This document shows positions 7,760 through 16,745 of a DNA stretch of 64,000 bases, in pieces (position 1 is the first letter of the stretch; every line of letters starts with the position of its first letter). Position numbers and translations under genes: made by a program. Where the stretch lies: contig NZ_KE386573.1 of NCBI RefSeq assembly GCF_000427685.1, positions 1,844,938 through 1,908,937 on the forward strand, given 5' to 3'. The notes below the pieces were generated by a model, which saw nothing but the letters and a program-made list of their open reading frames with translations, searched no databases and was not told the DNA's origin. The stretch is from Haloplanus natans DSM 17983 (GTDB taxonomy: Archaea; Halobacteriota; Halobacteria; Halobacteriales; Haloferacaceae).

Positions 7760-8566
7760 ATGGCGTATTTCGAAGCTACCGACGGCGTACCGATCTACTA
7801 CACCGACCGCGGTGAAGGCGACCCAGTTCTCCTGATTCACGGGTGGACGATGAACTCGACGTACTGGTGGCAGCGCAACGTCGACGCCCTCGCCGAGGAG
7901 CACCGGGTCGTCGCGATGGACCTCCGGGGTCACGGCAAGTCGGGGAAGACGGACGCGGGGCATACGCTCGCGGGGTACGCCCGCGACGTACGCGGGTTGA
8001 TCGACCACCTCGACCTCGACGGCGTGACGCCCGTCGGGTGGTCGATGGGAACGGCGGTGATCCTCAACTACGTCGACCAGTTCGGGACCGACGGGCTGTC
8101 GAAGGTTGTCTTCGTCGACCAGAGCCCGAAGTTCCACACCGACGACGGGTGGGAGCACGGCCTGTTGGGCGAGTTCTCGGGGGAGGCGGCGACGGAACTC
8201 GCGACCAACTTGGAGTACAACCGGCCGTCGGCCGGCAAGCCGTTCGTGCAGGCGATGTTCGCCGACACGATCGACGACCGCCTCGTCGACGAGATGTACG
8301 CCGAGACGACGAAGACGCCGACGGGCGTCACCGTCGATATCTTCCTCGATATGACGTACTCGGATCTCCGGCCCGTGGTGAGCGAGGTGGACGTGCCCGC
8401 GCTCCTGATCTACGGCGAGCAAAGCGACATCTTTCCGACGGACGTGGGTGCGTGGCTCGAAGACGCGATGCCGAACGCGACCCACGTCCCCTTCACGGAC
8501 AGCGGCCACTGCCCGTTCTGGGAGGAAGCGGAACGGTTCAACGAGGAGGTCGCCCGGTTCGTCTAG
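7760..8566 (+). CDS. Alpha/beta-fold hydrolase
   Basis: 268 aa, the normal length for the family. It has the oxyanion motif LIHGW (25-29), a DLRGHGKS segment, the nucleophile elbow GWSMGT with Ser95, an acid loop near IYGEQSDIFP, and the catalytic His in DSGHCPFWEE. It is similar to chloroperoxidase or esterase-like hydrolases; the substrate cannot be told. It converges on the halocyanin gene, and their stop codons overlap by 4 bp at 8563-8566. Confidence 0.88.
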   Translation: MAYFEATDGVPIYYTDRGEGDPVLLIHGWTMNSTYWWQRNVDALAEEHRVVAMDLRGHGKSGKTDAGHTLAGYARDVRGLIDHLDLDGVTPVGWSMGTAVILNYVDQFGTDGLSKVVFVDQSPKFHTDDGWEHGLLGEFSGEAATELATNLEYNRPSAGKPFVQAMFADTIDDRLVDEMYAETTKTPTGVTVDIFLDMTYSDLRPVVSEVDVPALLIYGEQSDIFPTDVGAWLEDAMPNATHVPFTDSGHCPFWEEAERFNEEVARFV

Positions 8567-8967
8567 CGGACGACGACGCGACCGGTCATGCCCGACCCCT
8601 CGTGTGGGACACAGAAGTAGTCGTAGGTGCCGGCGGTGGCGAACGTGTGTTCGTAGGCGTCGTCCGGGGCGACGACGCCGCCGGTGATGTCGTTTCGCGC
8701 GGCGCGTTCGGACTCGAACCCGCCGCTGGCGAAGTAAGCGTCGTCGGCCGGAACCTTCCCGCCGTAGGCTGTCACCGTGTGTCCCACGTCGTCGTGGTTG
8801 ACCCAACGGACGGTCGTCCCGGCGTCGACGCCGAGGCGTTCCGGGTCGTACGTGAAGTCGCCGGCCATCGAGACGCGCTTCGCGTCGGCCGATCCGCCGA
8901 CGGACGAACAGCCGGCGAGGGCGACGAGCCCCGCCCCGCCGAGTCGAAGGACGCCTCGGCGTCTCAT
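8563..8967 (-). CDS. Halocyanin-like blue copper lipoprotein
   Basis: 134 aa plastocyanin-family protein. A short twin-arginine signal ends in the lipobox LAGC with Cys20, so it is likely lipid-anchored outside the membrane. Type-1 copper ligands are visible: His63 (VGHTVTA), Cys119, His122 and Met127 (FCVPHEGSGM). It probably shuttles electrons. It is the last gene of an operon with a ZIP transporter and a multicopper oxidase; its ATG overlaps the ZIP stop by 4 nt. Longer upstream readings are rejected because they lie inside the ZIP gene and lack a signal. Confidence 0.9.
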   Translation of the reverse strand: MRRRGVLRLGGAGLVALAGCSSVGGSADAKRVSMAGDFTYDPERLGVDAGTTVRWVNHDDVGHTVTAYGGKVPADDAYFASGGFESERAARNDITGGVVAPDDAYEHTFATAGTYDYFCVPHEGSGMTGRVVVR

Positions 8968-10193
8968 AGCGCGACGAGGAGGTCGGTGGCGTACATCACG
9001 ACGAGACCGACGAGGAAGGCGACGAGGTTGAGCGCCGTCCCAGTGCGGCCACGGCGGCCGATCATCCCGCGGAGTTCCCAGACGACCTGCAGGATGGCGC
9101 CGACGCCGACGGCGAGAAAGAGCGCCCCGAGCGTCGGCGAGTAGGCCAGACTGCCCAGCCACCCGCCGAGGATGACGGGCGCTCCTGCGAGGGCACCCAG
9201 AGCGGCGAACTGCGACAGCGGTGGGCGCTCGCCGCGGGCGACGGGCGCCACCACGGCAGGACCCTCCGTCACGTTGTGGATCATGAACCCGATGACGAGG
9301 AAGGCGCCGAGCGAGACGCGGCCGAGGGCGAACGAACTCCCGATGGCGAGACCCTCCGCGAGGTTGTGGAGGCCGATGCCGAGAGCGACGAGATAGGCGA
9401 TCCAGAGCCCGCTCCGTGCGCGTTCGTCGCCGTCCGCCGCCCGCCCCTCACGCCACGCGCTGACCGACTGCACCGCGAGGAGGGCACCGAGGATGCCGAG
9501 GGCAACGAGCGCCGGCCCCTCGAACGCGCCGGGCACCCGGTCGGCGAGTTCGAACGCCTCGAATCCGGCGTCGAACGCGAGGAAGACGAGGATGCCGGCT
9601 GAAAAGGCGAGGATGGCGTGGAGCCAGCGGTCGCTCATCGACTGCAGGAAGGGGAACCACAGCATCCCCAGGGCGACGGGGATGACGCCGACGAACAGGC
9701 CGATGACGACCATCGTCACGAGGAGGTCGGTCGTCAGCCCCGGCGACTCGCTGGGCGCGACGAGGGAGTGGTGGACCGTCGACCCGTCCGAGAGGACGAG
9801 CGCGAACTCGAGGTCCCAGCCGGGGTTCCAGTGGTACGGAACGACCACCCGCGCGCTCTGCCGGGGGGCGAGCGTGGCGTCCCCGCCCGCGCCCCGCACG
9901 TCGAAGTTCCAGTACGCCTCGGCGACGAGCACCTGCGAAATCGTCACCGAGTCGGGGCCGTTGTTCGTGACGTGGAGAACGACCGTCTCGTCGTCCGGCA
10001 GGGTGGTGTGGGTCACCGTCACGTCGGGCAGGGGGTCGCCGCCGGCATCGAGCGACGCGAACGGGCTTGTGACGACGAAACCGACGACGATGAGCGCCAG
10101 TAAGACGACGGGGAGGGCGGCCGCGACCCAGCGCGGCAGGCCAAGCGGCCGGTCGGCTCGGTGTAGCGTTCCGCCGTCGGTGGATTTGCTCAT
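8964..10193 (-). CDS. ZIP-family metal transporter with extracytoplasmic N-terminal domain
   Basis: 409 aa. The C-terminal ~260 residues are a ZIP transporter: about eight hydrophobic helices with the metal-site signatures HNLAEG (276-281) and HNVTEG (306-311). Ahead of them are a first TM (about 21-43) and ~110 residues of beta-rich sequence (residues 50-155, including VVLHVTNNGPDSVTISQV) expected outside the cell, unusual for ZIP proteins. Substrate is a divalent metal (Zn, Fe or Mn), not decidable here. It sits between the multicopper oxidase (1-bp gap) and halocyanin (4-nt overlap), which suggests coupled metal redox and transport. Confidence 0.88.
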   Translation of the reverse strand: MSKSTDGGTLHRADRPLGLPRWVAAALPVVLLALIVVGFVVTSPFASLDAGGDPLPDVTVTHTTLPDDETVVLHVTNNGPDSVTISQVLVAEAYWNFDVRGAGGDATLAPRQSARVVVPYHWNPGWDLEFALVLSDGSTVHHSLVAPSESPGLTTDLLVTMVVIGLFVGVIPVALGMLWFPFLQSMSDRWLHAILAFSAGILVFLAFDAGFEAFELADRVPGAFEGPALVALGILGALLAVQSVSAWREGRAADGDERARSGLWIAYLVALGIGLHNLAEGLAIGSSFALGRVSLGAFLVIGFMIHNVTEGPAVVAPVARGERPPLSQFAALGALAGAPVILGGWLGSLAYSPTLGALFLAVGVGAILQVVWELRGMIGRRGRTGTALNLVAFLVGLVVMYATDLLVAL

Positions 10194-10194
10194 C

Positions 10195-11469
10195 TCAGAC
10201 CACCTCGAAGAAGCTCATCCACCCGAGTTCGGCGAACTCGGACTGGTGGGCGTGGAACATATACAGGCCGGGGTCGTGGGTCGAGTAGTCCAGTTCGAGG
10301 ATGCCTCGCTGTGCCTGACACTGCATGATCGTATCGATCGTCTCGTGGGTCGGTCGCAACGTGGTCCCGTGGTCGTAGTAGTCGAAGAACTGCGAGTGGG
10401 TGTGAAAGGAGTTGACGAGGTCGAACTCGATGGCGTTGATGAGATACACCCGCTGGCGACGTGTCCGGTCGATCTGGATGGGGTGTTTCGTCTCGCCGGC
10501 CGCCCAGTTGCCCTCGCCGTCAGTCTCGCCGACGCCGTAGGCGAACGCGCGGGTGTTGACCGCGTACACCTCGTTACCCCCGTCGAAGTTCGTGTCGAAG
10601 CCGTTCATCACCATCACCATCTCGTCGACGGCGTCGTTTGCGGCGGACTCGTGGTTCCGCGACTCCGCCTCGCTGACGAGGTCGGCGCGGAGTTCCTCGG
10701 TGATCTGTGAGGAGTGGAAATCGCAGTACTCCGCGGGTCGCTCGGCGACCCGTACGGGGTCGGGATCGACGACGATCGCGCCGTAGAGGCCGCGGTGGAT
10801 GTGCTCCTTGAGCGGGAGCGAGTGGCAGTGATAGAAGTGACAGCCCGCGGGCTGGGCGATCCACTCGTAGGTGTAGGACTCGCCGGTGTCGAGGACGCCG
10901 GGGCCGTTGGTCGGAACCCCGTCCATCGCTGGGTTCGGGTTCCGCAGATGCGGGTGGATGGTGTGGGCGTGGCGCCCGAGGTTCTCGAAGTGGACGCGGA
11001 TCAGGTCGCCCTCGACGGCGCGGAGCGTGGGACCGGGCACCTGCCCGTTGTACGCCCACGCCGAGAACTCGATGCCCGGCGCGATAGCGACGGACGTATC
11101 GATGGCGGTGAGCGTGAACTCCCGGACCGTCCGGCCGTCCTCCTCGTAGACGTCCTGCGGGACGTTCTCGCTCTCGCCGTTCCCGGTGTTGAACCGCCTG
11201 AGGTAGTCGTGCGGATCGAAATCGAGGTCGCGGTACTCGCCGACGGCGCCGAAGTTGCCGTGGCGGTGGTCGTCCTCGTCGTGGCCCGCCGAGGCGTCGT
11301 GGCGATCCGCCCGGCCGACGCCGGCCAGGGCCGACCCGCCGGCGAGTCCGAGGCCGCCGAGGACCGCCCGTCGAGTGGTCGTCAACTCCGATTCGAGCGA
11401 ATCGGCCAACCGCGTCTCGAGTCGTTCGGTGAGCGCCCGTGCACGCCCGTACGTCGTCGAGGGCATCAC
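10195..11469 (-). CDS. Secreted two-domain multicopper oxidase
   Basis: 424 aa with a Tat-type signal region (TTRRAVLGGLGLAGGSALAG, residues 31-50) and a His/Asp-rich stretch after it. Copper motifs in domain 1 are HTIHPH (169-174) and YHCHS with Cys215 plus downstream His225. In domain 2, SFHTHSQF and FHAHQSEF (406-408) are present but no Cys, so the type-1 copper appears to be only in domain 1, with a trinuclear centre between domains. This resembles archaeal two-domain oxidases rather than NirK. The likely role is extracellular metal or phenol oxidation. First gene of the oxidase-ZIP-halocyanin operon. Confidence 0.88.
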   Translation of the reverse strand: MMPSTTYGRARALTERLETRLADSLESELTTTRRAVLGGLGLAGGSALAGVGRADRHDASAGHDEDDHRHGNFGAVGEYRDLDFDPHDYLRRFNTGNGESENVPQDVYEEDGRTVREFTLTAIDTSVAIAPGIEFSAWAYNGQVPGPTLRAVEGDLIRVHFENLGRHAHTIHPHLRNPNPAMDGVPTNGPGVLDTGESYTYEWIAQPAGCHFYHCHSLPLKEHIHRGLYGAIVVDPDPVRVAERPAEYCDFHSSQITEELRADLVSEAESRNHESAANDAVDEMVMVMNGFDTNFDGGNEVYAVNTRAFAYGVGETDGEGNWAAGETKHPIQIDRTRRQRVYLINAIEFDLVNSFHTHSQFFDYYDHGTTLRPTHETIDTIMQCQAQRGILELDYSTHDPGLYMFHAHQSEFAELGWMSFFEVV

Positions 11470-11531
11470 GGCCCCATCCCCGAAATCGACGCCGAAAGCG
11501 TCCCCAGTGGACGCGAATTCATCTTGGTACT

Positions 11532-11574
11532 TGATGACATCATGATTATAAATTAGATGTGTCTAAATATAAAC
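11532..11574 (-). promoter_or_regulatory. Promoter and palindromic operator of the oxidase-ZIP-halocyanin operon
   Basis: In the 177-bp gap before the oxidase lies an AT-rich block. TTAGA-TGTG-TCTAA (11553-11566) is a perfect 5-bp inverted repeat with a 4-nt spacer, the geometry of DtxR/SirR-type metalloregulator sites. Reading on the minus strand, a TATA-like TTTATAA lies at 11546-11552 adjacent to it. A second palindrome, TGATG-A-CATCA, is at 11532-11542. The regulator itself is not in the window. Confidence 0.5.
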
Positions 11575-11646
11575 TTTGGCAACGTCCGTCGCGTTCGCTA
11601 CGCGGTCACGGCGTCGGCGCTGTCGAGGCAGTGAACCAGGCGTCGC

Positions 11647-13149
11647 CTACTCCGCCCGTCGGAGCGTTCCACCGCTCAAGCCTTCCCACTCGACGCGGAG
11701 ATCGAGCGCCGAGAGGACGGCGCTTGCGTCGTCGAGTCCGTACTCGTCGAGGATCGCTTCCGCTTCCGCCAGTGTTCGGCCGGGTTCGAGACGGTCGCCC
11801 ACCGCGTCAAGGACGCCGGGGCGGACGAGCGTCCGCCCGACGCGTTCGTGATCGGGGAACGCCACCGAATCGAGAGCGTCCGCGCTCACCCCGTGGTCGG
11901 CGGCCAGAGCGTCGAGACCGATCACGTCCGCCTCGGGCCGGAGTTCGTCCGGCAGGGTGGCGCGGTTTTCCGTCACCAACTCCTCCTCGTACGCCCGAAG
12001 CGCGTCGACAACGTCCTTTACCCGCACCGATCCGGAGTAAGTGATCGCGCGGTGATCGCGTGTCTCTATCTCCTCCCCGACGCCGAGGCTCTCGTCGACG
12101 GCGACGAGCAGCTCAACGTCCTCGACATCGGCGAGTTGCCCGAGTTTCTTCTCGACGTATTCGGGCGTCCAGAAGCCCATGATCTCGAAGAAGACGGTGA
12201 AGTCGGCGAAGCGGTAGTCGAAGGCGAAGTCGGGGATCATCACCCGCGCGCCGGCGGCGAGGGGTTCGGGTTCGCGGGCGAGCTCCCAGTCGAGATCCAG
12301 TGCTCCGAATCGGGCGGCGAAGTCGGCCTCGACGCCGCTGTCGTAAGTCGGCTCCGCGACCGGTTCGACCCCCGGCACCGACACGTCGGCGTCGGTGAGG
12401 ACGAGTTCGCGGTCGGTGCCCCGGTCGTCGACCGTCGCTTCGAGACGCCACTCCGAACTCTTTGCGACCGAGCGAAGCAGGCGGGCGAACGCGGTGCCGT
12501 AACGGCGGGTGCGCCGAAAGAGATGATCGGGGCCGGTGACGACCACCTCCCGACCCGTGTCGGTCCGGCGCACCTCGTACATGAGGCCGAGGCGCTTCAC
12601 GGCCGAGATCAGCGCCTTCGGATCCGAGCTCCGGATTCGCACCTCGACGGCGTCGAACAGCGCCGTTTGCGCGAGCGAGAGGTTGTACTGGGTGAGCAGG
12701 CCGTCCGGACCCCACCGCGGATCGAAGGCGGCGAGGACCTGTCGGGGGTCGCGGTCGGCGTAGAGCGAGTCCGCCAGGGCGTCGGCGTCGACGCCGAGGC
12801 GGTCGGCCGCGCGGGAAAGCGCCCGGTCGCGGTCCGCCTCGCTGACGACGCCCACCGTCTCACCGGCCTCGAAGGCGACCCGTCGCGCGCGCTCCGGCGG
12901 CACCGCTGCCCGCGTCTCGAAGGCGGCGTCGCGTTCACACAGCGCCGCGAACCCGCGGACGAGTTTGAAGTGATCGGCCTCGGGTTCCAGATCGGCGAGG
13001 GCGGCCTCCAGATCCGCCCGCGGCCGGCCGACGTATGACTCGAAGAGTCCCATCACGCGTGCGGCCAGCGGCCGGTGGCTCCGGTCGGCGAACTGCGGGT
13101 GGTAGCCGCCGCCCGCCCGCGACACGCGGAGGAGGTCCTTCGTGAGCAC
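11647..13149 (-). CDS. bax1: Bax1-like XPB-associated nuclease (DUF790)
   Basis: 500 aa from a GTG start (LTKDLLRVSR), the usual N-terminus of DUF790 proteins; the upstream reading to 13368 overlaps the neighbouring lipoprotein gene and is rejected. The C-terminal nuclease-like segment reads PDFAFDYRF then FFEIMGFWTPEYVEKK. Bax1 binds the archaeal XPB helicase and acts as a structure-specific endonuclease in a repair complex. XPB is encoded 2.2 kb upstream on the same strand, separated here by an MBL/DUF3006 pair and an oppositely oriented lipoprotein gene. Confidence 0.85.
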   Translation of the reverse strand: MLTKDLLRVSRAGGGYHPQFADRSHRPLAARVMGLFESYVGRPRADLEAALADLEPEADHFKLVRGFAALCERDAAFETRAAVPPERARRVAFEAGETVGVVSEADRDRALSRAADRLGVDADALADSLYADRDPRQVLAAFDPRWGPDGLLTQYNLSLAQTALFDAVEVRIRSSDPKALISAVKRLGLMYEVRRTDTGREVVVTGPDHLFRRTRRYGTAFARLLRSVAKSSEWRLEATVDDRGTDRELVLTDADVSVPGVEPVAEPTYDSGVEADFAARFGALDLDWELAREPEPLAAGARVMIPDFAFDYRFADFTVFFEIMGFWTPEYVEKKLGQLADVEDVELLVAVDESLGVGEEIETRDHRAITYSGSVRVKDVVDALRAYEEELVTENRATLPDELRPEADVIGLDALAADHGVSADALDSVAFPDHERVGRTLVRPGVLDAVGDRLEPGRTLAEAEAILDEYGLDDASAVLSALDLRVEWEGLSGGTLRRAE

Positions 13150-13253
13150 GGTCGGGTCTGGGGGTGGTGGAAGTAAAGACCCGCCGCTCGGGACGGGGGC
13201 CGACGCGGCCGTCGTGGGAAACGCTCTTGTCCGTCGCGGGGGAGCCGTCGGGT

Positions 13254-13634
13254 ATGAAGCGGCGTCGCCTCCTCGCTCTCGGCATCGCCCTCCTCGGCGG
13301 CTGTTCTGATCTGCCGGGAGCGACCGGACCGCGAACCCCGCCGACGCCGAGCGAACCGACCGCCGCACCGACTCGATCGCTGCGCGTCACCGATCTGGCC
13401 GTCGAGGAGGCCGAGGACGGCCATCTGCGGGTCGTCGCGACGGTCCGTAACGAGACGACCACCCAGCGGACGCGGACGCTCCGCATCCGCGTCCGCGCTG
13501 GGGACATGCGCACCGAAAAGCGCCAGACGGTGACCGTCGCGGCCAACACGGAACGCGGCGTAGTCTTCGACTTTATCGACGTGGCCTACGACGACTTCTC
13601 GGGTAACGGTTCGCTGAACTCGACGTGGGTGTAG
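13254..13634 (+). CDS. Small lipoprotein
   Basis: 126 aa. The signal peptide MKRRRLLALGIALLGGC ends in a lipobox with Cys at residue 17, followed by a Pro/Thr-rich linker and a compact beta-rich domain (LRVTDLAVEEAEDGHLRVVATVRNET in two parts), similar to FxLYD/CARDB-like folds. Function unknown. It is inserted, in opposite orientation, between bax1 and the DUF3006 gene. Confidence 0.72.
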   Translation: MKRRRLLALGIALLGGCSDLPGATGPRTPPTPSEPTAAPTRSLRVTDLAVEEAEDGHLRVVATVRNETTTQRTRTLRIRVRAGDMRTEKRQTVTVAANTERGVVFDFIDVAYDDFSGNGSLNSTWV

Positions 13635-13649: not shown

Positions 13650-13949
13650 CTACGACTCCCCGTCCGACGGCGGTCGTTCGGACAGGCGGTCGAACCGATC
13701 CTGGGCTCGTTCGGCCCGGTCAGCCGTCCGCTCGGCGTCGTACTCGCTCTCGACCAGTGCCCCGTCGACGACCGTGACCCGCAGTATAGCGTCGGCGTGC
13801 CGTGCCGCCTCGGGCAGCGCCGAGGCATCGAGTACCGCGTTCCCGACTTCTTCGCCGTCGTCCTCGAAGAATACGGTCGCGAAACCGTCCTCGACGGAAT
13901 CGACGACCGCCGTGTAACGGCCGTCCGCCAGCGCGTCGATATCGGTCAT
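13650..13949 (-). CDS. DUF3006 family protein
   Basis: 99 aa with the DUF3006 pattern: YTAVVDSVEDGFATVFFEDD, then VLDASALPEAA, then a D/E/R-rich helical tail. Its ATG overlaps the stop of the upstream MBL gene (ATGA, 13946-13949). DUF3006 genes are commonly next to ComEC-like MBL proteins, so joint function is likely although the biochemical role is unknown. Confidence 0.85.
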   Translation of the reverse strand: MTDIDALADGRYTAVVDSVEDGFATVFFEDDGEEVGNAVLDASALPEAARHADAILRVTVVDGALVESEYDAERTADRAERAQDRFDRLSERPPSDGES

Positions 13950-15337
13950 GGATACGTCTCCCGTAACACCGGGTCACCGTCACTGTTGCGGACGATCACC
14001 GTGTCGCCGTCGTTGTTCCAGATAGCCGATCCCGACCCCCAGTACATATCGGCGTCGGTGTCGGTTCCGGTGCCGGTCCGCAGCGTCACCGTCCCCCCGG
14101 CGTCGAGGACGTACCCGTCGGGGACGGTGTACGTCCGACCGGCCCCGTCCTCGACCGTCCAGCCGGAGAGATCCAGGGGTTCGTCACCCGCGTTCTCGAA
14201 GACCACGTACTCGTCGTCGAGGTTCTCCCGGTCGGAGCCGTCGGGGTCGGGGACGATTTCCCCGACGACCAGCGTCCCGTCGGTCCGGGTGCCGCCGTCG
14301 GTCACGGTCGGCGCCGCCGTCCGGGCCGTCACCGCACTGCCCCCGAGACGGGCGCGGTCGGCGACAATGCTCTGGTTTCCGGGGTCCACGTCGTCGGCGT
14401 CGCGGAGGGCGAGCGGATCGGTGGGGGCCGCCGCCTGCGTCCGGACGGTGATCCCGCGTCCGTCGCTGACGAAGACGATGTCGCCGTGGGTCGCCGTCCA
14501 GTAAGTCGGCAGCGAGCGGTCGGACAACCGCCCAAGCACCGCCTCGGTCGGGTGGCCATACTGGGAGTCGTAGGCGCTCGACACGACGACGGCGCTCGGC
14601 CGAACCGCGTCCAGGAGGGCGCCGCTGGAGGAACTCGACGAGCCGTGATGGCCGGCCTTCAGTACGGTCGATCGGAGCCGGTCGCCGTACCGATCGACGA
14701 GGTAGGCCTCCTGGTCGTCCTCGGCGTCACCGGTGAGGAGGAAACTCGTCTCGCCGTGGGTGAGTTTGAGGACGATGCTGTTATCGTTTCGAGCACCGTC
14801 TTCCAGGTAGGGTTCGGGAGGTCCAAACACCGCCACGCCGACGCCCTCGAACCGGATCTCGTCACCTTGACGCGTCTCGTACAGCGTCACGTCGTGTGTC
14901 TCGACGGCGTCGAGGTAGCGTTCGTACGTCCGGGTGCTCGCCGCGATGCCCGGGTCGTAGACGGCGCCGATACCGCCGGCCTCCGTCTCGTAGTGGTCGA
15001 TGATCGCCGCGTTGCCGCCGATGTGGTCCGCGTCGTTGTGCGAGACGACGAGGTGGTCGATGCGGTCGATGCCCCGGCGCTCCAGATACGTCAGCACGTA
15101 CGCGCCGTCGTCGTTGTAGTGGCCCGTATCGATCAGCATCGTCTCGCCGGTCGGTCCGACGACGAGCGTGCTCACCGACTGCCCGACGTTGATGGAGTGT
15201 ACTTCGAGCGTCCCGTCGGCGCCCGCCGTCGCCGTCGGTGCCGAAGTCTCGGCGAGTTCGTCGGTCGACCCGGCGCCGCCACACCCCGCGAGGACGACGA
15301 CGAGAGCGAGTAGGGCCACCCGGGCCGTTCGCGACAT
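13946..15337 (-). CDS. ComEC-like exported MBL hydrolase with lamin-tail domain
   Basis: 463 aa. A lipobox (VVVLAGC, Cys near residue 16) indicates a lipoprotein. Residues ~40-300 are a ComEC/Rec2-type metallo-beta-lactamase: NVGQS, DTGHYNDDGAY, the HNDADHIGG metal motif, LTGDAEDDQE and LKAGHHGSS. The last ~109 residues (about 355-463) form a lamin-tail-like domain (VVFENAGDEPLDLSGWTVED). It has none of the ComEC membrane helices. Likely an extracellular nuclease or phosphodiesterase; the substrate is inferred. The start at 15337 gives a proper signal; 15391 does not. Confidence 0.85.
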   Translation of the reverse strand: MSRTARVALLALVVVLAGCGGAGSTDELAETSAPTATAGADGTLEVHSINVGQSVSTLVVGPTGETMLIDTGHYNDDGAYVLTYLERRGIDRIDHLVVSHNDADHIGGNAAIIDHYETEAGGIGAVYDPGIAASTRTYERYLDAVETHDVTLYETRQGDEIRFEGVGVAVFGPPEPYLEDGARNDNSIVLKLTHGETSFLLTGDAEDDQEAYLVDRYGDRLRSTVLKAGHHGSSSSSSGALLDAVRPSAVVVSSAYDSQYGHPTEAVLGRLSDRSLPTYWTATHGDIVFVSDGRGITVRTQAAAPTDPLALRDADDVDPGNQSIVADRARLGGSAVTARTAAPTVTDGGTRTDGTLVVGEIVPDPDGSDRENLDDEYVVFENAGDEPLDLSGWTVEDGAGRTYTVPDGYVLDAGGTVTLRTGTGTDTDADMYWGSGSAIWNNDGDTVIVRNSDGDPVLRETYP

Positions 15338-15398
15338 GGTTCGGCTACGGCGTGCCACGTCAAAGGTGGTTCGCCCGTCGGCACAGCGCACTCGACGC

Positions 15399-16745
15399 CT
15401 ACCGCCTGCGTTCGGCCACCCGTTCTTCGGCCGTCTCGGCGCTCACGACTTCGTAACAGAGCGCCCGCCCGCCGTCCGATTTGGGGCGCAGGACACGGCC
15501 CAGCCGTTGCGTGAACTCGCGTTCGCTCCCGCTCCCCGAGAGGACGACGGCGACGTTGGCGTCGGGCACGTCGATCCCCTCGTCGAGGACGTTCGCGGTC
15601 ACGATACGGCCGTAGGTCCCCTCGCGAAAGCGGTCGAGGACCGCCCGACGCTCGCTCGCCCCCGTCTCGCCCGTGATCGCCGGGAGCAGGAAGCGTTCGG
15701 AGAGGCGGTAGACGAGGTCGGTGTGAGCGGTGAAGACGATGACCCGGTCGTCGCGGTGGCGATCCAGCAGGCGAGCCAGCGCGTCGACTTTCGCGTCCGC
15801 GTTCATCATGATCTCGCGAGCCTCCTGCTTGGCCAGGAGGGCTTCTCGCGCCCGCGGGTCCGACCCCGACCGCATCACGAGTTCCTGATAGTCGCTGCCG
15901 GAGGAGAGGGAGAGCCCCGACGTTTTGAGGTAGTCGACGAAGGTTCCCTGTGCCGCCTCGTAGGCCTCGCGTTCCGCGTCCGTGAGGTCGACCTCGATCC
16001 GCCGGAGTTCGTAGTCGGCGAGATGTTCGCCCGCTAGGTCGTCCACGTCGAGGTCGTAGACGACGGGGCCGACCAGTTCCGCGATCACCTCGTGGGCGCC
16101 GTCCGGGCGTTCGAACGTCGCCGTGAGGCCGAGACGGGCAGGTGCGGCCAGGAGCCGCGCGATGTCGCGGTAGCCCTCGGCGCCGAGGTGGTGTACCTCG
16201 TCGAAAACGACGAACTCGAAGCGGTCGCCGACCTCGTCGGCGCGGAGATACGCGGAGTCGTAGGTGGCGACGGTCAGGTCCTCGATGCGTTGCTCGCCGC
16301 CCCCGAGTTGTCCCACGTCGACGCCGAACTCCGTCTCCACCTCGCGGCGCCACTGGGTGAGGAGGTCGACGGTAGGGACGACGACGAGCGTCGGCGCTCC
16401 GAGCGCGGCCATCGCGGCGACGGCGACGACCGTCTTGCCGCTCCCCGTCGGGAGTTCGAGGACGCCCCGACGGCCGTTGGCCGCCCAGGCGTCGAGCGCC
16501 GCGGACTGGTAGTCACGGAGGTCGTAGTCGGTCGCGAGCGAGAGGCGGTCGGAGTCGAACACCCGGTCCTCGTAGTCGAGGCCGGCCGCATCGAGGGCGT
16601 CTCGGAGGTCGGCGTAGCGGTGGGCGGGAGCACGGAGCGTCTCGCTGCGGTCGTCGACGGTCAGCGAGAGGGCGTCGCGAAGGCGTTGCGACCGCTCTCC
16701 ACGGAGGACGATCGCACCGTCGGCGAACCGGAGGCGAAGCGTCAC
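15399..16745 (-). CDS. XPB-type DNA repair helicase
   Basis: 448 aa SF2 helicase. Walker A is GSGKT (101-105), the Walker B box DEVH (182-185), motif III LTATFERPDG, and a C-terminal motif VI QRLGRVLRP. Archaeal XPB partners Bax1 in opening and incising DNA. Starts with GTG at 16745, 24 nt from a TATA-like element, so it is probably leaderless. It shares this promoter region with a divergent small gene. Confidence 0.9.
   Translation of the reverse strand: MTLRLRFADGAIVLRGERSQRLRDALSLTVDDRSETLRAPAHRYADLRDALDAAGLDYEDRVFDSDRLSLATDYDLRDYQSAALDAWAANGRRGVLELPTGSGKTVVAVAAMAALGAPTLVVVPTVDLLTQWRREVETEFGVDVGQLGGGEQRIEDLTVATYDSAYLRADEVGDRFEFVVFDEVHHLGAEGYRDIARLLAAPARLGLTATFERPDGAHEVIAELVGPVVYDLDVDDLAGEHLADYELRRIEVDLTDAEREAYEAAQGTFVDYLKTSGLSLSSGSDYQELVMRSGSDPRAREALLAKQEAREIMMNADAKVDALARLLDRHRDDRVIVFTAHTDLVYRLSERFLLPAITGETGASERRAVLDRFREGTYGRIVTANVLDEGIDVPDANVAVVLSGSGSEREFTQRLGRVLRPKSDGGRALCYEVVSAETAEERVAERRR

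Follow-up and report, generated by a model that had tools for sequence, protein, structure and literature searches.

Three genes on the minus strand of the window, the 64,000-nucleotide stretch of the Haloplanus natans DSM 17983 genome analysed here, form an operon that encodes a multicopper oxidase (MCO), a ZIP-type metal transporter with an extracellular beta domain (beta-ZIP), and a blue copper lipoprotein (Table 1). The earlier note had described them as joined by a 1-bp gap and a 4-nt overlap, which is borne out by the reading frames: one free base (10194) separates the MCO and beta-ZIP genes, and the beta-ZIP and blue copper genes share ATGA at 8967–8964. The neighbours are ordinary, with an alpha/beta hydrolase gene on the other strand (7760–8566) and a Bax1 nuclease gene upstream (11647–13368). 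The Bax1 gene, or an ORF resembling it, is also found on the same strand and directly upstream of the MCO operon in other loci (L112–L114, L126, and L129). Because this adjacency extends to a different haloarchaeal family, the chromosomal site itself seems to be conserved. The ORF at 15399–16745 is helicase-like (XPB-like by eye), and a metallo-beta-lactamase-like ORF (13946–15391) and small genes lie between it and Bax1. XPB-like helicases and Bax1 are usually partners.

Table 1. Features of the MCO/beta-ZIP operon in the window.
Feature	Position	Strand	Basis
Two-domain multicopper oxidase (MCO), 423 aa, Tat signal (RR)	10195..11466	-	Family search, ligand alignment
Beta-ZIP metal transporter, 409 aa	8964..10193	-	Sequence, predicted fold, motif alignment
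Extracellular beta-sandwich domain of beta-ZIP, residues 45–153	9735..10061	-	AF2 pLDDT 89
Blue copper lipoprotein, plastocyanin family, 134 aa	8563..8967	-	PF00127, ligand alignment
Putative MntR-type operator TTTAGACACATCTAA, overlapping the AT-rich core promoter	11553..11567	-	Motif search, upstream alignment
Operon promoter and leader, TTTATAT adjoining the operator	11468..11580	-	Sequence, upstream-region alignment

The Pfam search assigned the MCO to the families Cu-oxidase_3 and Cu-oxidase_2, and its start was placed at the ATG at 11466 because the N-terminus is conserved in relatives. Among 141 relatives (61 haloarchaeal and 80 bacterial), the RR Tat motif is kept in at least 97%, and the copper ligands are invariant in all. 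The single type-1 (T1) copper site is located in domain 1 and consists of His168, Cys214, His222, and the axial Leu227. Eight histidines (171, 173, 213, 215, 355, 357, 405, and 407) belong to the trinuclear cluster. The axial residue is Leu in 96 of the relatives and Met in 45; we take the axial Leu to be the arrangement of Fet3p and other ferroxidases. The pattern of HxxHxH and YHCHxxxxxxxHxxxxL/M in domain 1 and of HxH and HxH without Cys in domain 2 restricts the T1 copper to domain 1, which is the hallmark of two-domain MCOs of type C. The Tat signal, the family assignment, and the intact ligands thus support a secreted two-domain oxidase, as had been proposed. The nearest solved structures are PDB 7rab and 3gdc. 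We also considered NirK, which is recognized by the TIGR02376 cut-off of 296, Asp98, and a T2-only centre instead of a full trinuclear cluster. This identity was rejected because the protein scores 69.8 bits and has all eight cluster histidines. CueO/CopA was likewise rejected on the basis of curated cut-offs and ligands.

The transporter matches the ZIP model PF02535 below its cut-off (26 versus 35 bits), and its identity was confirmed by a sequence match to BbZIP and by a Foldseek match of the predicted fold to BbZIP. An N-terminal helix (residues 21–42) is predicted to be followed by a beta-sandwich of ~90 residues (about 58–144) and by the eight helices of the ZIP fold. Two of these helices hold the HNxxEG-type metal motifs, HNxAEG (276–281) and HNxTEG (306–311), which are invariant in relatives. 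The description of the protein as a ZIP with an extracellular beta domain therefore agrees with both the BbZIP matches and the all-beta sandwich, which is predicted with high confidence (Table 1). Fold matches of this domain are weak, being to FlaF/FlaG and PCuAC domains with general sandwich likeness only. A metal-binding role, which the PCuAC matches had brought up, was dismissed because the domain has no conserved metal ligands. Its invariant residues are Gln87, Trp122, and Gly137, and the conservation of these residues rather than of ligands suggests protein docking. Among the ZIPs inspected, the domain was seen only in those linked to an MCO. ZIPs lacking it are present in many further haloarchaeal genomes, and no MCO was adjacent in the three that were examined.

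The MCO occurs at 66 places in 58 of 391 haloarchaeal genomes, covering 31 of 86 genera. The earlier note had suggested checking gene-order conservation across Halobacteria, and the check was passed: a full beta-ZIP gene follows on the same strand for 65 of the 66 MCO genes, and the single exception is a truncated MCO (G298:C1:1318968–1319714). This truncated gene without a ZIP and a split beta-ZIP gene elsewhere (L113, G274:C152:119253–120543) have the look of module copies in decay. In all 80 best bacterial matches, taken with the alignment led by 7rab, the order is the same and the ZIP gene lies directly downstream. These loci belong to Deinococcota, Chloroflexota, Cyanobacteria, Proteobacteria, and Balneolota, and every bacterial ZIP with a placeable start (77/77) carries the beta domain. 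Actinobacterial plasmids also bear the pair, the gene of PDB 3gdc being one such case, and at least six bacterial phyla are spanned. The two genes mostly overlap or are separated by gaps of tens of bases. Several haloarchaeal genomes have two to four copies of the module, many of them on plasmid-size contigs, and it is also found on named haloarchaeal plasmids. A tree of 67 MCOs groups the haloarchaeal proteins in one clade (100/100), with Chloroflexota as its neighbour (94/94). Within this limited sample, the topology is compatible with one acquisition from bacteria. The module is real and conserved across Bacteria and Archaea, with a gene order far beyond chance.

The blue copper protein belongs to PF00127 and has a lipobox (Cys20) and intact copper ligands (His63, Cys119, His122, and Met127). 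Of the anchored halocyanin in the earlier note, the anchor and the copper site stand, whereas the halocyanin model TIGR03102 gives 45.3 bits against a cut-off of 93.8; "halocyanin" is a loose name for this plastocyanin/azurin-family lipoprotein. Of 61 haloarchaeal loci, 45 have a blue copper gene within 1.2 kb downstream of the pair; in the other 16, none was found. After the best 80 bacterial pairs, no cupredoxin gene was detected beyond chance motif matches. Because it is absent from these 16 and from nearly all bacterial loci, the blue copper gene was discarded as an essential part of the module, whose core is the MCO and beta-ZIP, with the blue copper protein as an accessory. The proposal of a device that works jointly on a metal is well supported for the pair, which is nearly inseparable and under the control of a metal regulator, but its core is not the trio. 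In the Actinobacteria Rubrobacter and Nocardia, the downstream position held by the blue copper gene in haloarchaea is occupied by a gene for a Rieske protein (L361:5832–6293 and L364:5200–5481). The occurrence of either gene at the same position hints that the MCO exchanges electrons with a partner.

A palindrome, TTTAGAYNNRTCTAA, is located upstream of the operon in most haloarchaeal loci. With at most one mismatch, it precedes the MCO gene or the linked regulator gene in 52 of 61 loci, compared with 7 of 685 control promoters from the same regions. The perfect match occurs once in the 3.8 Mb host genome, at the window's operon, and a one-mismatch copy lies directly upstream of the host's own mntR-GDT1 operon. 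A DtxR/MntR-type regulator gene was detected by tblastn upstream of the MCO gene in at least 26 of the 61 haloarchaeal loci, often overlapping it or a few bases away, and is divergent in two or more further loci. The window's own operon has no adjacent regulator gene, and the palindrome is kept. The best curated model for the linked regulator is NF047407 (Mn-dependent MntR) with about 190–218 bits, which is below the cut-off of 350; the regulator scores 218 bits with the manganese model versus 109 bits with the iron model. Asp occupies the positions equivalent to Met10 and Cys102 of DtxR, which we take to be the metal-ligand sites that distinguish MntR from DtxR. The regulator has the FeoA-like C-terminal domain of DtxR/IdeR. 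The mntR homologue of the host genome, at C7:2302208–2302864, is 48% identical to the linked type and is followed by a gene for a GDT1-type divalent cation antiporter.

Regulators of this kind accompany the bacterial pair as well: an annotated MntR in Rhodobacterales, and DtxR-type regulators in Arthrobacter, Rubrobacter, Trueperaceae, and Chloroflexota. A recognizable MntR/DtxR gene lies within 1.5 kb in just 10 of the best 80 bacterial loci. In two Halomonas loci (L158:7624–8350 and L164), a Mn riboswitch and a gene for the efflux protein MntP are convergent with the pair, and a MerA-like ORF is nearby. Rfam scans of 24 bacterial loci detected no Mn riboswitch before the MCO gene, only those near MntP in Halomonas.

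The exact operator was searched in 45 genomes without the operon and 60 with it, in which the backward pattern gave only a handful of matches. Among 63 distinct exact sites inspected, 55 lie upstream of genes of six types: mntR (22, mostly with GDT1 behind), GDT1 (2), a ZnuA-type binding protein (16), an ArsP_2 10TM transporter (13), a beta-less ZIP (1), and MgtE (1). Eight precede none of these types, three of them near DoxX-like genes. No siderophore or Feo genes were seen behind the inspected sites. Within a genome, mntR and transporter genes of the Mn type have this operator in common, as expected of an MntR regulon. Its occurrence before mntR-GDT1, ZnuA-type, and 10TM genes points to Mn (possibly Fe) rather than Cu. 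As judged from the annotated genes, the targets constitute a manganese-type regulon. The MntR-type control of the pair that these sequences indicate is new, and we consider it the decisive finding. The earlier note had left the imported metal as Fe, Mn, Zn, or Cu; the regulator and the operator narrow this list to Mn in the first place and Fe in the second.

Some of these targets deserve comment in their own right. The ArsP_2 transporter (PF11449; "arsenic efflux" in NCBIfam) is repeatedly found behind the operator (L259, L260, L262, L264, L265, L274, L281, and others) and may be a transporter of Mn rather than arsenic. DoxX-like genes lie near the operator in haloarchaea (L278, L336, and L337), a DoxX gene follows the pair in Rubrobacter marinus (L361:5226–5678), and DoxX may be a member of the Mn regulon. 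A beta-less ZIP without an MCO lies near the operator in two loci (L275 in genome G044 and L354 in G206) and is possibly an oxidase-free alternative.

The near-obligate pairing, the close spacing, the common destination at the outer face, and the docking-type domain together suggest that the oxidase and the importer are a working unit, and Mn-type regulation suggests a need for this unit under shortage of Mn (or Fe). We consider it probable that the operon is an oxidase-coupled acquisition module for Mn, with Fe as the second choice, which an MntR/DtxR-type regulator represses while metal is abundant. The overlap between operator and core promoter is naturally read as a means of repression in cells replete with the metal. 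Under metal scarcity, the repressor would leave the operator and the three proteins would be made. The MCO would be exported in the folded state by Tat and act as a cell-surface oxidase that passes electrons to O2 by way of its T1 and trinuclear copper sites. Metal would be carried into the cell by the beta-ZIP, using the binuclear site conserved in ZIPs. The beta domain of this transporter is most likely a docking site for the MCO or the blue copper protein, coupling oxidation to entry as a driving force or for selectivity, and the anchored blue copper protein may relay electrons to or from the MCO. The passage of electrons from the metal itself through the copper proteins, which the earlier note had envisaged, is a conjecture. 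Oxidation by O2 could thereby drive or gate metal entry, as in Fet3p-Ftr1p. A more specific version, in which the MCO oxidizes Mn(II) with O2 and the resulting Mn(III) travels by way of the docked beta domain to a ZIP able to take the oxidized metal, would be a Mn counterpart of Fet3p-Ftr1p in Archaea and Bacteria, spread on plasmids. We regard this version as doubtful. ZIPs are known for divalent ions, so the oxidation of Mn(II) or Fe(II) would be of no obvious help, and this is the main objection to the entry of Mn(III).

The same objection does not touch a scheme in which the beta-ZIP imports Mn(II) and the MCO acts as a selectivity filter, oxidizing rival Fe(II) or Cu(I) at the mouth to forms incompatible with the ZIP. 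It retains normal divalent ZIP chemistry and accounts for both the obligate pairing and the Mn regulation; however, Fe(II) is already scarce in aerated brine, and we give this scheme a small share of the probability. Iron uptake, with the MCO as a ferroxidase, an Fe-importing beta-ZIP, and an Fe(II)-sensing DtxR-type repressor, would make the module the prokaryotic counterpart of Fet3p-Ftr1p. DtxR-family regulators can respond to both Mn(II) and Fe(II), iron-transporter genes lie downstream of the Haloprofundus plasmid locus, and the axial Leu, presumably a ferroxidase feature, and the FeoA-like domain are consistent with this function. However, the Met/Cys ligands typical of iron sensors are missing from the regulator, its score with the manganese model is double that with the iron model, and the regulon holds GDT1 and ZnuA/MntC-type genes with no siderophore or Feo genes seen. 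Iron uptake therefore appears unlikely to us.

Phenol oxidation in vitro is common for two-domain MCOs, and many of the loci lie on plasmids that bear further metal genes, so that the MCO might be a laccase for organics or serve in copper or oxidative-stress defence, with the ZIP co-regulated but working alone. This would leave unexplained a pair that is almost never split in 145 archaeal and bacterial loci and an extracellular domain seen only in MCO-linked ZIPs among those inspected; we hold it to be quite improbable. Copper uptake would suit an operon so rich in copper proteins. In the ammonia-oxidizing archaeon N. viennensis, MCO1 and the adjacent permease (NVIE_000600/000590) rise modestly under copper limitation, and a model in which the MCO makes Cu(II) for import by the permease was proposed (PMC7785015). 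Here, the operator and its regulon, with their MntR-type regulator and Mn/Zn-type transporters, lead us to downgrade copper as the imported metal, and making three copper-demanding proteins to obtain copper would be odd. Copper uptake is thus a very unlikely function of the present module.

The subfamily of the present MCO includes the MCO of Arthrobacter sp. FB24 (PDB 3gdc) and 7rab/7rac, all crystal structures of the oxidase alone. To our knowledge, no metal-uptake function is known for these proteins, yet the 3gdc gene itself lies upstream of a beta-ZIP gene and next to a divergent gene for a metal-dependent regulator. Yeast Fet3p-Ftr1p resembles the module in its surface multicopper oxidase, the one-to-one pairing of this oxidase with a permease, and its control by metal starvation. 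In contrast, Ftr1 has REXXE motifs whereas the permease here is a ZIP and not a member of the Ftr1 family, Fet3p has three domains and the present MCO two, and the regulator and the probable metal differ. Metal channelling has been shown in yeast and would be analogous here.

The nearest precedent for an oxidase-permease module is the MCO1/zinc-iron permease pair of ammonia-oxidizing archaea, described as a two-domain MCO with an axial Leu and an adjacent ZIP-type permease gene (PMC7785015). It differs in being proposed for Cu, and a blue copper gene and an MntR operator are not described there. With this precedent and the occurrence of the pair in bacteria, the system is not peculiar to haloarchaea. 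We found no publication that describes the MCO/beta-ZIP module, the beta domain, or control by MntR, and no experimental work on any module member; earlier mention is possible in Leyn and Rodionov 2015, on the DtxR regulons of archaea, and in Green 2013 (MntX). Known Mn importers under MntR/SirR control (the ABC system zurMA-ycdH of Halobacterium, and bacterial MntH and SitABCD) share the regulator family, and the same operator precedes ZnuA-type genes in related genomes, but these importers lack an oxidase. The SirR protein of Halobacterium has been described as an autorepressor that acts on Mn uptake genes in a Mn(II)-dependent manner (PMC3600143). The Mn oxidases MnxG and McoA of Pseudomonas putida GB-1 are different MCOs with no dedicated permease known. 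Nevertheless, MCO-catalysed Mn oxidation raises intracellular Mn in this bacterium by a mechanism that was unknown in that report, where coupling between oxidation and transport was raised as a possibility (PMC3798386).

Oxidase-coupled metal uptake built on a ZIP, with a logic like that of Fet3p-Ftr1p, is our best reading by analogy, and the pair is probably an O2-using route to manganese. Why bacteria apply multicopper oxidases to manganese is an old open question, for which the cassette provides a genetically tractable object. A likely role can now be proposed for PDB 3gdc and for the many genes annotated as "multicopper oxidase domain-containing protein" or "metal transporter", and the operator may serve as a tool to read the manganese regulon of haloarchaea.
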